Below, piece by piece: positions 2,155 to 59,285 of a stretch of 64,000 nucleotides of DNA. The DNA comes from Sorex araneus (lineage: Eukaryota; Chordata; Mammalia; Eulipotyphla; Soricidae), in the NCBI RefSeq assembly GCF_027595985.1, contig NC_073303.1, forward strand, positions 190,212,972 to 190,276,971. The letters run 5' to 3'. Numbering within the stretch: the stretch's first letter is position 1; each line of letters opens with the position of its first letter. Under the pieces are notes generated by a model, which was not told where the DNA came from, ran no database searches, and worked only from the letters and a program-made list of their open reading frames with translations. The position numbers and the translations under genes were made by a program.

Positions 2155-2567
2155 TTCACTGTATCACTGTTATCCAGTTAATCATTGATTTGCTTGAGTG
2201 GACGCCAGTAACGTCTCCATTTGTCCTAGTCCTGAGATTTTAGCAGCCTCTCTTTACTCGTTCTTCCTACCCAGGCTGCATTAGAGGCTGTTTCAGGGTA
2301 AGGAGAATGAAACCCATCATTGTGACTCTGTTTGGCATATTGAATGCCACAGAGAGTTTGCTACGCTCTGCCATGCGGGCTGGATGCTCTTGGTACCTTG
2401 CCAGATTCTTCGAGAGGGAGGGTTAGGTTATAAGAGATCATGTGGCCACAAATGTGGCCACGTGCTTCTGGGAGCTTTGTTTTATAATCTCTGGATCTTG
2501 GCCATTGATGGGATTACATGGCACCAGGGGCAGTTTGTGGGTGTGGCTGCCAAGCTACTGGAAAAAA
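2155..2567 (-). mobile_element. RTE-derived non-autonomous element inserted in L1
   Basis: Antisense. It opens with the RTE-type 3' end (CACTGTATCACTG tail, then the block around GATTTGCTTGAG), jumps directly to the RTE 5' region (AGGCTGTTTCAGGGTAAGG, TTTGGCATATTGAATGCC, GCTACGCTCTGCC), and ends in the GC-rich module also seen at 5640-5740 and 8400-8500. The coding interior is therefore missing. Imperfect target-site duplications GAGGACCTCACCAT (2141-2154) and GAGTACCTCATGAT (2568-2581) bracket it, so it inserted after the L1 copy. A small GTGGCCAC repeat at 2443-2462 looks like a local duplication. Confidence 0.75.
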
Positions 2568-5271: not shown

Positions 5272-5960
5272 CTTTTCACTGTATCACTGTATCACTGTCA
5301 TCCCCTTGTTCATTGATTTACTTGAGCGGGCACCAGTAACGTCTCTATTCCTCTCAGCACTGAGATTTTAGTTGCCTCTCCTTACTTGTCTTTCCCAACC
5401 ATTGGAGGCTCTTTCAGGGTCAGGAGAATGAGACCTATTGTTACTGTATTTGGCATATTGAATACACCATGGGTAGCTTGCCAGGCTCTGCCCATGTGGG
5501 CGCCAGTAATGTCTCTATTTGTCCCTGTTGCATTCAGGGTCAGGGGAATGAGGCCCACTATTGTTACTGTTTCTGGCATATCGAATAATCCAGGGGTAGC
5601 TTGCCAGAGTCTGCCGTTCGAGATTTTGCACCACTCTCTTCTGGAAGCTTTGTTTTATAGTCTGTGAATCTTGGCCATTGATGAGATTACATGACGCCGG
5701 GGGTAGTTTGTGGGTGTGACTGCCAAGCTACTGGAAAACTGAGGATCTGGGAGGAGAAAGCCCAGTACCGATCCAAGCAGGCTTGGTGATCTCAGCCATG
5801 GGTCCTGCATACCTGGGTTCCTCTGTCGGTTCCTTCATGTGTGAGGCTCATCTGAGGGTGGAGAGTGGCCTTGAGCATGGCTGCAGCTGGGTTCTGGAGG
5901 TTCTGGAGCTAGGGTTCATGTGCAGATTTCCAGCACGGATATAACAAGATAAATTTGCAT
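5272..5960 (-). mobile_element. RTE-derived internally deleted element with GC-rich 5' module
   Basis: Antisense. From the left: the 3' terminus with tail repeats CACTGTATCACTGTATCACTG; the block with CACCAGTAACGTCTCTAT; the RTE 5' region (GGAGGCTCTTTCAGGGTCAGG, TTTGGCATATTGAATACACC, GTAGCTTGCCAGGCTCTGCC); then the GC-rich module (GATGAGATTACATGACGCCG, GTGACTGCCAAGCTACTGG, TTCATGTGTGAGGCTC). The 3'/5' junction unit is present twice (from about 5327 and about 5498), an internal tandem duplication of ~170 bp. There is no tRNA head in this copy. Confidence 0.75.
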
Positions 5961-16497: not shown

Positions 16498-16558
16498 CTA
16501 TTACTTAATTTTGACAGAGGCATAAAATCCCAGGGTGAAAGGGTATCTGGGTACCAAT

Positions 16559-16816
16559 ATTACTGTAGCACTGTAGCACTGTTGTTCTGTTGTTCATCGA
16601 TTTGCTTGAGCGGGCACCAGTAATGTCTCCATTGTGAGACTTGGTGTTACTGTTTTTGGCATATCAAATACACCACGTGTAGCTTGCCAGGCTCTGCCGT
16701 ATGGGCAGGATACTCTCGGTAGCTTGCCGAGCTCTCTGAGAGGGATGCAGGAATTGAACCCTGGTCGGTCGCGTGCAAGGCAAACGGCCTACCTGCTGTT
16801 CTATTGCTCCAGTCCA
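16559..16816 (-). repeat. Chimeric SINE: SOR tRNA head on RTE-derived body
   Basis: On the minus strand: the SOR tRNA-like head (CTGGAGCAATAGAACAG.., B-box relic); then CTCTCAGAGAGCTCGGCAAG and the RTE 5'-region words GGCAAGCTAC, GGCAGAGCCTGGCAAG, ATATGCCAAAAACAGTAAC; then the RTE-type 3' terminus with GCCCGCTCAAGCAAATCGA-type sequence; and a tail of short ACAGTGCT repeats instead of poly(A). The standard SOR body is absent. Repeated-word tails rather than A tails are typical of RTE mobilisation. Confidence 0.85.
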
Positions 16817-16914
16817 CCAATAATACTAGATAACCTAACATCAAAGACTAAAACAGTTTACTCAAACTGCTTTGAGGGAAGGGCCAAAGTGGGATTTGGA
16901 TTCCCAAAGATATT

Positions 16915-20090: not shown

Positions 20091-20315
20091 CTGCACTGTA
20101 GCACTGCACTGTCGATTTGCTTGGGCGGGCACCAGTAACATCTCCATTGTGAGACTAGTTGTTACTGTTTTTGGCATATTGAATACACCACGGGTAGCCT
20201 GCCGGGCTCTGCTCTGCGGGCGAGATACTCTTGGTAGCTTGCCGGGCTCTCCGAGAGGGATGGAGGAATCGAAACTGGGTTGACCACGTGCAAGGCAAAT
20301 GCCCTATCTGCTGTG
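20091..20315 (-). repeat. Chimeric SINE: SOR tRNA head on RTE-derived body
   Basis: Antisense. Tail repeats CACTGTAGCACTGCACTGT, a 3' block containing TCGATTTGCTTGGGCGGG, the body words GTTTTTGGCATATTGAATAC and CCGGGCTCTCCGAGAGGGA, then the tRNA head up to CTGCTGTG, where the last ~20 bp are missing and an AAAACAAAAC run follows. Confidence 0.85.
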
Positions 20316-28800: not shown

Positions 28801-28843
28801 ATGGGACCAAAATTGTAGAGACTCAATTTAATACAAATATTTG

Positions 28844-28975
28844 TATCACTTGTATCACTTGTCATCTTGTTACACATCAATTCGCTTGAGCGGGCGCCAG
28901 TAATGTCTCCATTCATCCCTGTCTCGTGCTGGTGTAGCCCAATGGCATCTGCTCGCTCCAGGAACATGAAGAATT
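28844..28975 (-). repeat. RTE-type 3' end, variant body
   Basis: Antisense tail repeats TGTATCACTTGTATCACTTG, then AATTCGCTTGAGCGGGCGCC and AGTAATGTCTCCATT. The inner part (28915-28975) does not match the chimeric SINE body, so it is a different RTE 3' derivative or a 5' truncation. Confidence 0.6.
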
Positions 28976-34531: not shown

Positions 34532-34814
34532 GGCAGTGAAATTCTGAAGAGCCTGAAAAGATATCTTTATATCTGGAATATATATGGGGCAAAGGAATAA
34601 AGGAACACCCTTCAGCACAGTGCTTTTATTCTGATTCCCTCGCGCTTCCCACCCCCACCACGGGGAGAAAATGATATTCTTTAGCTCTCTACAGTTTACA
34701 TGGAGAAAGTTAAAACAGCTGTGAATGTTCTTGTTGTTCTGAATTTGTAATAATTAGGGCAAGCTAAACATTCATTATAATAAGACCATGGATGTGTCCC
34801 TAGACCTAGTTTTT

Positions 34815-34990
34815 TTTTTTTCATTTTTTTTTCACGTCACATGCAGCAATGCTCAAGGGTTACTCCTGGCTCTGCACTCAGGACTTACTCCTGGGAGTAC
34901 TCAGGGGACCATATGGGATGCTGGGGATTGAACCTGGGTTGGCTGCGTGCAGGGCAAATACCCTCCCCGCTGTATTATTACTCCTGCCCC
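34815..34990 (-). repeat. SOR-type SINE
   Basis: Antisense with long T-rich tail. Approximate TSD AGACCTAGTTTTTT (34802) and AGATCTAGTTCTTT (34991). Confidence 0.88.
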
Positions 34991-37273: not shown

Positions 37274-37517
37274 TTGATGAGGCATAGCACAGCGGGTAGG
37301 GTGTTTGCCTTGCATGCGTCCAACCCGGGTTGGATTCCTCTGTCCCTCTAGGAAAGCCTGGCAAGCTACCGAGAGTATCCCACCCTCACGGCAGGGCCGG
37401 GCAAGCTACCCGTGGCATATTTGATATGCCAAAAAACAGTAACAACAAGTCTCACAATGGAGACGTTTCTGGTGCCCACTCAAGCAAATCGATGATAGTG
37501 ACAGTAACAGTAAACCT
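37274..37517 (+). repeat. Chimeric SINE: SOR tRNA head on RTE-derived body
   Basis: Sense. Head GCATAGCACAGCGGGTAGGG with TTGCCTTGCATGCGTCC and a B-box relic (GGGTTGGATTCC); body GGCAAGCTACCGAGAGTATC and CATATTTGATATGCC; 3' terminus TGGTGCCCACTCAAGC, AAATCGATGATAGTGACAG. The easiest sense-strand copy in which to see the head/body junction. Confidence 0.88.
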
Positions 37518-42117: not shown

Positions 42118-42366
42118 TTCATGCCAGTAGGGTTTCCTGCCCACATGGGAGAGCCTGACAAACTCCCCATGGCATATTCATATGCCAACACCAGTAACAA
42201 TGATGGGTCTCATTCCCCTGACCCTGAAAGAGCCTCCAATGCGGCACCATTGGGAAGGACAAGTAAAGAGAGGCTTCTAAAATCTCAGGGCTAAGATGAA
42301 TGGAGACATTACTGAAACTGCTTGAGAAAATAGACCATCAATGGGATGATGATGATGATGATGATC
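42118..42366 (+). mobile_element. RTE-derived internally deleted element with (GAT)n tail
   Basis: Sense. RTE 5' region (CCCACATGGGAGAGCCTGAC, GTAACAATGATGGGTCTCAT, CCTGACCCTGAAAGAGCCTC, AAGTAAAGAGAGGCTTCTAA), parallel to 58340-58490 of the coding copy, then ATGAATGGAGACATTACTG joins to a diverged 3' end and a (GATGAT)n tail at 42348-42366. This copy shows most directly that the body words of the chimeric SINE come from the RTE 5' region. Confidence 0.8.
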
Positions 42367-42384
42367 TATTTTTCTACAATGAAA

Positions 42385-45395: not shown

Positions 45396-45645
45396 GATCT
45401 TCAGAAAGTTATTGGAATGGCGGTTAGGCTTTTGCCTTTCACATGGCCGACCCATGTTCGATTCCTCCACCCCTCTCGGAGAGCCCGGCAAGCTACTGAG
45501 AGTGTGGAGCCCACATGGCAGAGCCTGGCAAGCTACCCGTGTTATTGGATATGCCAAAAACAGTAACAATAAGTCTCTCAATGAGAGACGTTACTGGTGC
45601 CTGCTTGAACAAATCGATGACCAACGGGATGATAGTGACATAAGA
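45396..45645 (+). repeat. Chimeric SINE: SOR tRNA head on RTE-derived body
   Basis: Sense, with head damaged at its 5' end. B box ATGTTCGATTCC; body CTCTCGGAGAGCCCGGCAAG, GGCAGAGCCTGGCAAGCTAC, CCAAAAACAGTAACAATAAG; 3' terminus GTTACTGGTGCCTGCTTG and AAATCGATGACCAACGGGA; short tail GATGATAGTGAC. Confidence 0.88.
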
Positions 45646-47756: not shown

Positions 47757-48084
47757 ATAATTTTTTAGTAGAAATGTTTTCAAGGACCAATTTAAGGTTT
47801 TCAAAATTTTATTTTTCAATGTCTTGCATAGAGCAGAAGCTTAGATTTCTTTTCAGTTTTTTGAAATTTAATTCAAAGATAAAATAATAATATATTTAAA
47901 AATTTCAACATGATGAGTTAATATACACTTATGTTATGAAGGCATGTCTACCATAGTTCAGTGAACATACCCCTCATCCACTTACATCTTTATCTTTCCT
48001 TTGGAGGGGTAATACAGTGATAACACATGTTTTAGTTTTAAACCTAATTAGAATGCTACAATATGGTATCAGCTATAGTAATCA
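47757..48084. other. AT-rich unique sequence
   Basis: Nothing recognised. Confidence 0.4.
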
Positions 48085-48340
48085 ATGTATCACTGTTATC
48101 CCATTGCTCATAGATTTGCTCAAACAGGCACCAGTAACATCTCCAGCGTGAGACTTGTTGTTACTGTTTTTGGCATATCGAATATGCCACAAGTAGCTTG
48201 CCAAGCTCTGCCAGGTGGGCGAGATACTCTCAGTATACTCTCAGAGCTTGCTGGGCTCTCCAAGAGGGATGGAGGAGTCAAACCCAGGTTGGCTGCATGC
48301 AAGGCAAATGCCCTACCCCACTGTGCTATCACTCCAACAT
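48085..48340 (-). repeat. Chimeric SINE: SOR tRNA head on RTE-derived body
   Basis: Antisense. Tail TGTATCACTGTTATCCC, GATTTGCTCAAACAGGC, GTTTTTGGCATATCGAATATG, CTGGGCTCTCCAAGAGGGA, then the head to CACTCCAAC. A local CTCTCAGTATACTCTCAG duplication lies in the body. Confidence 0.87.
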
Positions 48341-58000: not shown

Positions 58001-58429
58001 CATCCAGAAAGTGGCCTGGAGCTTGGCAGTGGCTGGGTAGTGGAGGTAGTGGAGGTCGGCCCATGACATATTTACCTGGTGTCAGTAGGGTGGGTTGTCT
58101 GGGTTTGATCCCTGGGGCGCCAGAGATTGGAGGAGGCTGACAGAAGATCTTGTTTCCGGTTTCGAGGCCGCGCAACATAACATAAGATACTTAATACCCA
58201 TTTTCCATAATTTCCCCATCATATTTGATGATGTTCAAATATGGTGTGAACCATGGGAACACCTGTAAGGGAGATTAGAGGCCGCCCTAAAAGTCCATTC
58301 CTTTCAGAGAGTTTGGCAAGCTACTGAGAGTACTCTGCCCACATGGCAGAGTCTGGCAAGCTAGCCGTGATATATTCGATCTGCCAAAAACAGTAACAAC
58401 AATGGGCCTCATTGGCCTGACACTGAAAG
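58001..58429 (+). mobile_element. RTE LINE 5' region
   Basis: Upstream of the endonuclease ORF. 58303-58429 (GAGTTTGGCAAGCTACTGAG, GGCAGAGTCTGGCAAGCTAG, CCAAAAACAGTAACAACAAT, CCTGACACTGAAAGAGCCCC) is the source sequence for the body of the chimeric SINEs. 58001-58150 is GC-richer (GGCAGTGGCTGGGTAGTGG) and may relate to the 7780-8600 module. The 5' boundary is uncertain. Confidence 0.65.
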
Positions 58430-59285
58430 AGCCCCAGATATGGCAGCATTAAGAAGGATGAGCAAGGAGAGGCTGATAAAATCTCAGGGACGAACTAGAC
58501 TGCCAAAACGAAGAGGGACTAAAATAACTCTGTACTTTCAATGCACATTCGCTGGCATTGGAAGCATCCATAGAGGACCTGATGGTGCAAGCACAGAATA
58601 TCAAGTACAACATTATTGGCCTGATCGAAACGAGAAGACATTGGTCACATCACGCCATTTTCAACACTGAAGAAGAATTGTTCCTCGGAACATGCGACAA
58701 CAGAGGCCTTGATGGCATCGGTGTTTGTCAACACAAAATTGGCTATGAGCATTGATTCATTCAAACGCCTAACAACCCAAATTGGATGATTAAGTTTGAA
58801 TAGATGTGGCTCACTGCTGGCAGTTTCTATCAGCGTTGTCTACACACCAACATCCAACTATGATGAAGAAGAAATTGAGAGGTTCTACATGGAGCTGGAA
58901 AAATTCTAGAAAGAAGACCACACCTTCTACAAGATCATTGTCATTGATTTTAATGCCAAGATAGATCTGAATAGGTCACCCGAAGAACTCCACATTGGGT
59001 CCCATGGACTAGAATGGAACGAACAGGGTGAGAGACTGTCTGAGCTCATCATGTTGACCAAGACCATCCATGGTAACTCACAGTTCCAGAAGGCCGAGTC
59101 TAAATGTTGAACATGGGAGTCTCCCAGTGGACAGTTCCACAATGAAATTGACCACATCATATTCAATCGAAGATTTTGCCTGACCAATGTCACTGTTGTC
59201 CCAAAATTCCAAACAGGATTGGGCCATATCCTTCATGCAAAATTCTACTTCACAGAGTGGGGAGAAAGAACTGCAAACTCTCAAT
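58430..59285 (+). pseudogene. RTE-clade LINE ORF, endonuclease domain, broken
   Basis: The 5' part of an RTE-clade retrotransposon polyprotein: an endonuclease/exonuclease/phosphatase (EEP, APE-type) domain that in intact elements nicks target DNA for reverse transcription. Ordered words seen across frames: LCTFNAHSLALEASIEDL; IGLIETRRH (the catalytic-Glu motif); EEELFLGTCDNRGLDGIGV; FYMELEKF; IVIDFNAKI (family form GDFNA; the Gly is changed); EELHIGSHGLEWNEQGERL; NEIDHIIFNRRFCL (the IDH motif); GLGHI where the family has a terminal SDH. A frameshift lies between 58440 and 58558. In-frame stops occur near 58755, 58800, 58907 and 59107. The reverse transcriptase domain and 3' end are absent, unusual since LINEs normally lose their 5' end. 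Wording is strikingly close to parasitic-nematode RTE proteins. Confidence 0.85.

Follow-up and report, generated by a model that had tools for sequence, protein, structure and literature searches.

A repeat on the minus strand at positions 16565-16816 of a 64,000-nucleotide stretch of the Sorex araneus genome (the window) raises the question of how the promoter end of one mobile element came to be joined to both ends of another. Its tRNA-like head resembles the resident SINE of the shrew, which we take to be the one named SOR, and the remainder resembles an RTE LINE. At issue are whether the joined pieces form one family, where the head came from, which machinery inserted the copies, and what the partner LINE is. 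Our reading is that the chimera is very probably a non-autonomous SINE family with an RTE partner, born via a deleted RTE copy and a SOR head; it is based on the anatomy, the single junction, the insertion marks, and an RTE copy having both most of the body and the 3' end.

The near-full unit consists, from 5' to 3', of a SOR-type tRNA-like head reaching slightly beyond the B box, a body of about 115 nt derived from the 5' region of an RTE LINE, and about 65 nt from the RTE 3' end, finishing in repeats of ACAGTGAT or ACAGTGCT. The chimera consensus carries A-box-like and B-box promoter words, as judged from its sequence. In the flagged copy the head is 66 nt, the body about 115 nt and the 3' part about 65 nt, and the body aligns at 84% over 107 bp (E = 1.7e-28) with 58296-58402, the RTE 5' region from which the original prediction had derived it. 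There the body-like part, about 58294-58402, is followed by an RTE-like reading frame. In the 3' part the match is to the ends of RTE copies, with the last ORF codons and a short repeat tail. It is an RTE terminus with repeats as had been proposed, except that the flagged tail is ACAGTGCT rather than ACAGTGAT, and that it takes in the end of the RTE reading frame as well, beyond the 3' UTR. Folding of the terminal RNA gives nothing unusual (z = -0.54). All five copies that had been listed, at 16559, 20091, 37274, 45396 and 48085, are present (Table 1), although 16559 lies within the downstream target-site duplication of the flagged copy and the element itself starts at 16565.

Table 1. Positions in the window of the chimeric SINE copies and the RTE sequences related to them
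Feature	Positions	Strand	Remarks
SOR-type tRNA-like head, flagged copy	16751..16816	-	A-box-like and B-box promoter words (GTTCGATTC in family consensus)
RTE 5'-region body, flagged copy	16634..16750	-	84% identity to 58296-58402, with alignment
RTE 3' terminus with ACAGTGCT repeats, flagged copy	16565..16633	-	
Target-site duplication, 5' side of flagged copy	16817..16827	.	AGTATTATTGG / AGTAATATTGG, 10/11 match
Target-site duplication, 3' side of flagged copy	16554..16564	.	10/11 match to 5'-side copy
Second chimera copy	20093..20315	-	head from position 17
Third chimera copy (end approximate)	37274..37515	+	excluded from 30-copy set by length filter
Fourth chimera copy	45422..45637	+	head from position 24
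Fifth chimera copy	48083..48336	-	GAT tail
RTE LINE fragment	58294..59275	+	5' region used as SINE body, then ORF start
RTE LINE 3' end with ACAAGTGAT repeats (limits approximate)	28832..28972	-	
Internally deleted headless RTE copy (limits approximate)	2158..2540	-	
Internally deleted headless RTE copy (limits approximate)	5286..5901	-	body piece twice, 3'-terminus fragment between
Internally deleted headless RTE copy (end approximate)	42129..42370	+	

Elsewhere in the window, 34719-34844 on the plus strand matches a SNORA72-like snoRNA at 68 bits; with poor alignment over a T-rich final portion, it has the look of a decayed copy.

The head is that of SOR. The head of the GAT subfamily and our SOR consensus are identical at 64 of 66 positions, both differences being at CpG sites, and the GCT-subfamily head has three differences from SOR, at other positions than those of GAT. 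One might instead suppose that the head came directly from a tRNA-Ala gene and is like SOR only via that common source, since SOR is itself tRNA-Ala-like and ARAGORN calls three window SOR copies tRNA-Ala. A SOR copy, however, reaches no more than 31 bits with the tRNA model, several of its pairs being broken, and this score and the near-identity to the SOR consensus led us to set a direct tRNA origin aside as extremely unlikely. SOR and the chimera have the head in common and differ in body, tail and duplication type, the chimera having neither the SOR body nor the A tail.

Whether the pieces were joined once can be asked of 30 near-full copies: 4 in the window and 26 beyond it, with 17 in sampled stretches and 9 at best-hit loci (L002-L008). 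These 9 are included in the junction, tail and duplication counts, and divergence figures use the other 21. Similarity to SOR ends at SOR position 63-67 in 29 of the 30, exactly at 67 in 22, the divergence beginning after GGTTCGATTCC; the single outlier is the flagged copy, in which it runs to position 76. The switch from SOR head to RTE words just past the B box, as first described, is accordingly one junction. The exact 32-nt word across it occurs 1,078 times in the genome (537 forward, 541 reverse; 2.406 Gb in 65 contigs), and its reversed control 0 times. The word holds several CpGs, so that few copies match it exactly, and there is none in the window and sampled stretches. The chimera is one family with one junction. 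The same counts bear on whether these are composites of independent insertions, in which SOR pieces happened to land within or next to RTE fragments. The two repeats are densely scattered and frequently fragmented, with 35 of 115 repeat groupings in the sampled stretches being SOR bodies without a head (others are 5 RTE bodies alone, 6 RTE tails alone, and 3 headless bodies with a tail). The uniform junction decisively disfavors such composites, as do the number of exact junction words and the duplications, described below, that flank the whole unit; we set them aside as having virtually no probability.

Sampling of 19 stretches of 10 kb at round coordinates, which are non-random, covers 189,082 bases; a twentieth, L014 (C2:30000001-30010000), was dropped as being all N. 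The 17 near-full copies found there scale to about 216,000 genome-wide (bootstrap 115,000-318,000), which suggests a copy number of about 2x10^5. On the same stretches SOR scales to about 776,000 (573,000-980,000), and RTE 3'-half copies number 2 against the 17 of the SINE. One stretch has two opposite-orientation chimera copies about 40 bp apart with flanking words common to both (L024:6968-7458).

The most direct record of the machinery is in the tails and target-site duplications. L1 insertion leaves A-led duplications and A tails. The prediction had given SOR the same head with another body and an A tail, and indeed an A-run of at least 8 follows the end in 48 of 98 SOR copies versus 0 of 30 chimeras. 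Chimera tails in these 30 are 14 GCT, 10 GAT and 6 undecided. By class, the tail repeat is ACAAGTGAT in the LINE, mostly ACAGTGAT in deleted copies, and ACAGTGAT or ACAGTGCT in the SINE, the SINE unit being that of the full LINE minus one A. Duplications scoring at least 8 surround the whole unit in 12 of 27 usable copies (three starting late in the head were left out), versus 4 of 262 mismatched pairings. The other 15 have no clear duplication, and by source the counts are 6 of 9 best-hit copies and 6 of 18 others, with 12 of those 18 lacking one. For SOR the count is 45 of 89 (nine left out) versus 29 of 882 in the control. With near-homopolymers excluded (two, both SOR), the median duplication is 10 bp in the chimera and 14 bp in SOR, and those starting with AA are 1 of 12 versus 25 of 43. 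Neither L1-type mark, A tail (0/30) nor A-led duplications (1/12), characterizes the chimera. It could be held that the chimera still depends on L1 and that the RTE tail is a passenger, the head being from a SINE with L1-type marks, but the absent A-runs, the shorter duplications that are not A-led, and the RTE-like repeat tail make continued L1 dependence very unlikely, and it was set aside. Of the switch from L1 to RTE machinery that had been proposed, the change of marks in tail, duplication length and A-content is seen; mobilization by the RTE protein is what we infer. Transcription by pol III would start from the SOR-type head with its A-box-like and B-box words, and the RTE reverse transcriptase would then recognize the shared 3' terminus and insert the SINE RNA by target-primed reverse transcription.

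The partner LINE is known here mostly from pieces. An RTE 3'-half query has at least 41 matches with 40 of 17,671 candidates scored, and ACAAGTG is present in the tails of 11 of 11 best-hit RTE 3' ends read, the query having carried its own ACAAGTG tail, which favors matches with that tail. That the body words belong to longer RTE copies was borne out in one copy (L043, adjoining L039), where body positions 39-109 stand directly before the ORF and the copy continues to the RTE 3' end, but not in the four other RTE copies extended upstream, where the body was not seen before the ORF on the same strand. Within the L043 copy, about 125 bp (rteA 871-998) matches many places in the sampled stretches, and another dense repeat seems to have inserted there. 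Duplications of at least 8 around RTE copies were found by a loose search in 2 of 7, one of them in low-complexity sequence.

Two reverse transcriptase (RT) pieces of another RTE copy match Pfam RVT_1 with E = 9.6e-7 and 8.1e-4, just under or under the curated cut-off, and the endonuclease piece matched no Pfam family. Among the matches listed, the RT piece is closest to strongylid nematodes, at 66% to Nippostrongylus and 65% to Heligmosomoides, in a search limited to proteins 0.55-1.75x the length of the 214-aa piece. Among the 120 of 249 matches listed, several of them unnamed, the only named mammal is Sorex araneus, at 74% over 67% of the query. Because of the length limit, full-length mammalian RTE proteins could not appear, and this would allow the RTE to be an old, vertically inherited mammalian element, leaving the SINE unrelated to horizontal transfer. 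We regard that as unlikely, given that the best matches listed are strongylid and that no other mammal is among the named ones. The RT similarity is consistent with horizontal arrival of the RTE, and a nematode origin would follow by inference. RTE1_Sar of Sorex araneus is placed nearest to Heligmosomoides and Nippostrongylus RTEs in PMC6542046, the same two genera that give the best named RT matches here within the protein-length limit. RTE1_Sar is a LINE and the chimera a SINE; from these likenesses RTE1_Sar is probably the partner LINE. A 38-nt word across body and tail had 0 exact matches in viral contigs, in a scan that may omit records of this genome.

How the two RTE ends came together may be indicated by headless, internally deleted RTE copies, which are found in the window and the sampled stretches. 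They have the start of the 3' part in common with the SINE, and in 6 of 9 the terminal AGTGAT repeats lack, as in the SINE, the extra A found in the LINE; the other 3 of 9 have other ends. The 5' deletion point of the SINE differs from that of every deleted copy aligned. Since ends and 5' deletion points differ, none of these copies is the direct parent of the SINE. A deleted copy nevertheless appears the likelier parent than the full LINE, because of those 6 of 9 ends lacking the extra A versus the ACAAGTG of all 11 LINE ends. The simplest route would run from LINE to deleted LINE to capture of the SOR head. The RTE LINE would give rise to internally deleted copies keeping the 5' and 3' ends, and the RTE enzyme, while copying the RNA of such a copy, could change over to a SOR transcript as template immediately beyond the B box, by which the deleted copy would gain a promoter. 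Both elements of the route have parallels: PMC7245038 discusses the birth of hagfish SINEs as RTE internal deletion and fusion with a SINE, and PMC4476161 describes Anolis U6 chimeras with an RTE-like LINE that arose by template switching.

Without CpG sites, chimera copies (21) lie at a median distance of 0.067 from consensus and SOR copies (85) at 0.102, the SOR distances ranging from 0.008 to 0.419. SOR activity seems to begin before that of the chimera and to run beyond it. By halved median pairwise distance, the chimera (21 copies) stands at 0.064 and RTE (12 copies) at 0.044, the RTE set being biased young because it is composed of best hits. Subfamily ages are similar in the sample, at 0.067 for GAT (9 copies) and 0.062 for GCT (8 copies).

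Bipartite RTE SINEs occur in ruminants and other mammals. Gogolevsky et al. 2008 are said to have described the Bov-B-mobilized SINEs Bov-tA, AfroSINE, Mar-1, Ped-1 and Ped-2, which reportedly consist, like the chimera, of a promoter head and 5' and 3' pieces of an RTE-clade LINE; the head of Ped-2 is reported by the same authors to come from the SINE ID. Their RTE lineage and heads are other than those of the chimera. The chimera has a head with pol III promoter words, a piece of the 5' region of its partner RTE, an RTE 3' terminus with non-A repeats whose unit differs by one A, a junction uniform over many copies (29/30, and the 1,078 exact words), and duplications around the unit (12/27 vs 4/262), and it joins the known class of bipartite RTE SINEs that includes Bov-tA, the AviRTE SINEs, and the hagfish SINEs. 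As described in PMC4844689, the AviRTE SINEs of birds (ManaSINE1, GymnSINE, and others) have a bipartite tail of RTE 5' and 3' UTR, and AviRTE is common to birds and parasitic nematodes, so that both the tail and the nematode affinity of the RTE are as for the chimera. Their heads, by the same source, come from genes for tRNA-Glu or for 5S or 28S rRNA, or are GC-rich, whereas that of the chimera is from a resident SINE. The hagfish SINE1-1_EBu and SINE2 families (PMC7245038) are like the chimera in bipartite RTE tail and proposed birth route, and differ in that the SINE1-1_EBu head is from 7SL RNA and that hosts and RTEs are other than those of the shrew. The design as such is already known, bipartite RTE SINEs, including ones on a bird- and nematode-shared RTE, having been published (PMC4844689, PMC7245038). 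A whole-word search of the main text of PMC6542046 finds no mention of SINEs, non-autonomous or chimeric elements, tail, or SOR, and titles and abstract starts of the open-licence papers listed hold no description of a shrew SOR/RTE chimeric SINE. The family may already be catalogued in a repeat database.

In the wider reading, toward which we lean with some reserve, a LINE of parasitic nematodes entered a shrew ancestor, and a resident L1-dependent SINE took its ends, changed partner, and reached about 2x10^5 copies, far above the LINE, later evolving its own ACAGTGCT tail. If that is true, no mammalian SINE before the chimera had, to our knowledge, been connected with a LINE derived from nematodes. 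A single horizontal transfer, published for the LINE, would then have had substantial later consequences for a mammalian genome. The distribution of the SINE among shrews would be a mappable marker bounding the time of RTE arrival, and the chimera and SOR, having one head with different tails and target sites, would allow insertion of the L1 type and of the RTE type to be compared cleanly in nature.
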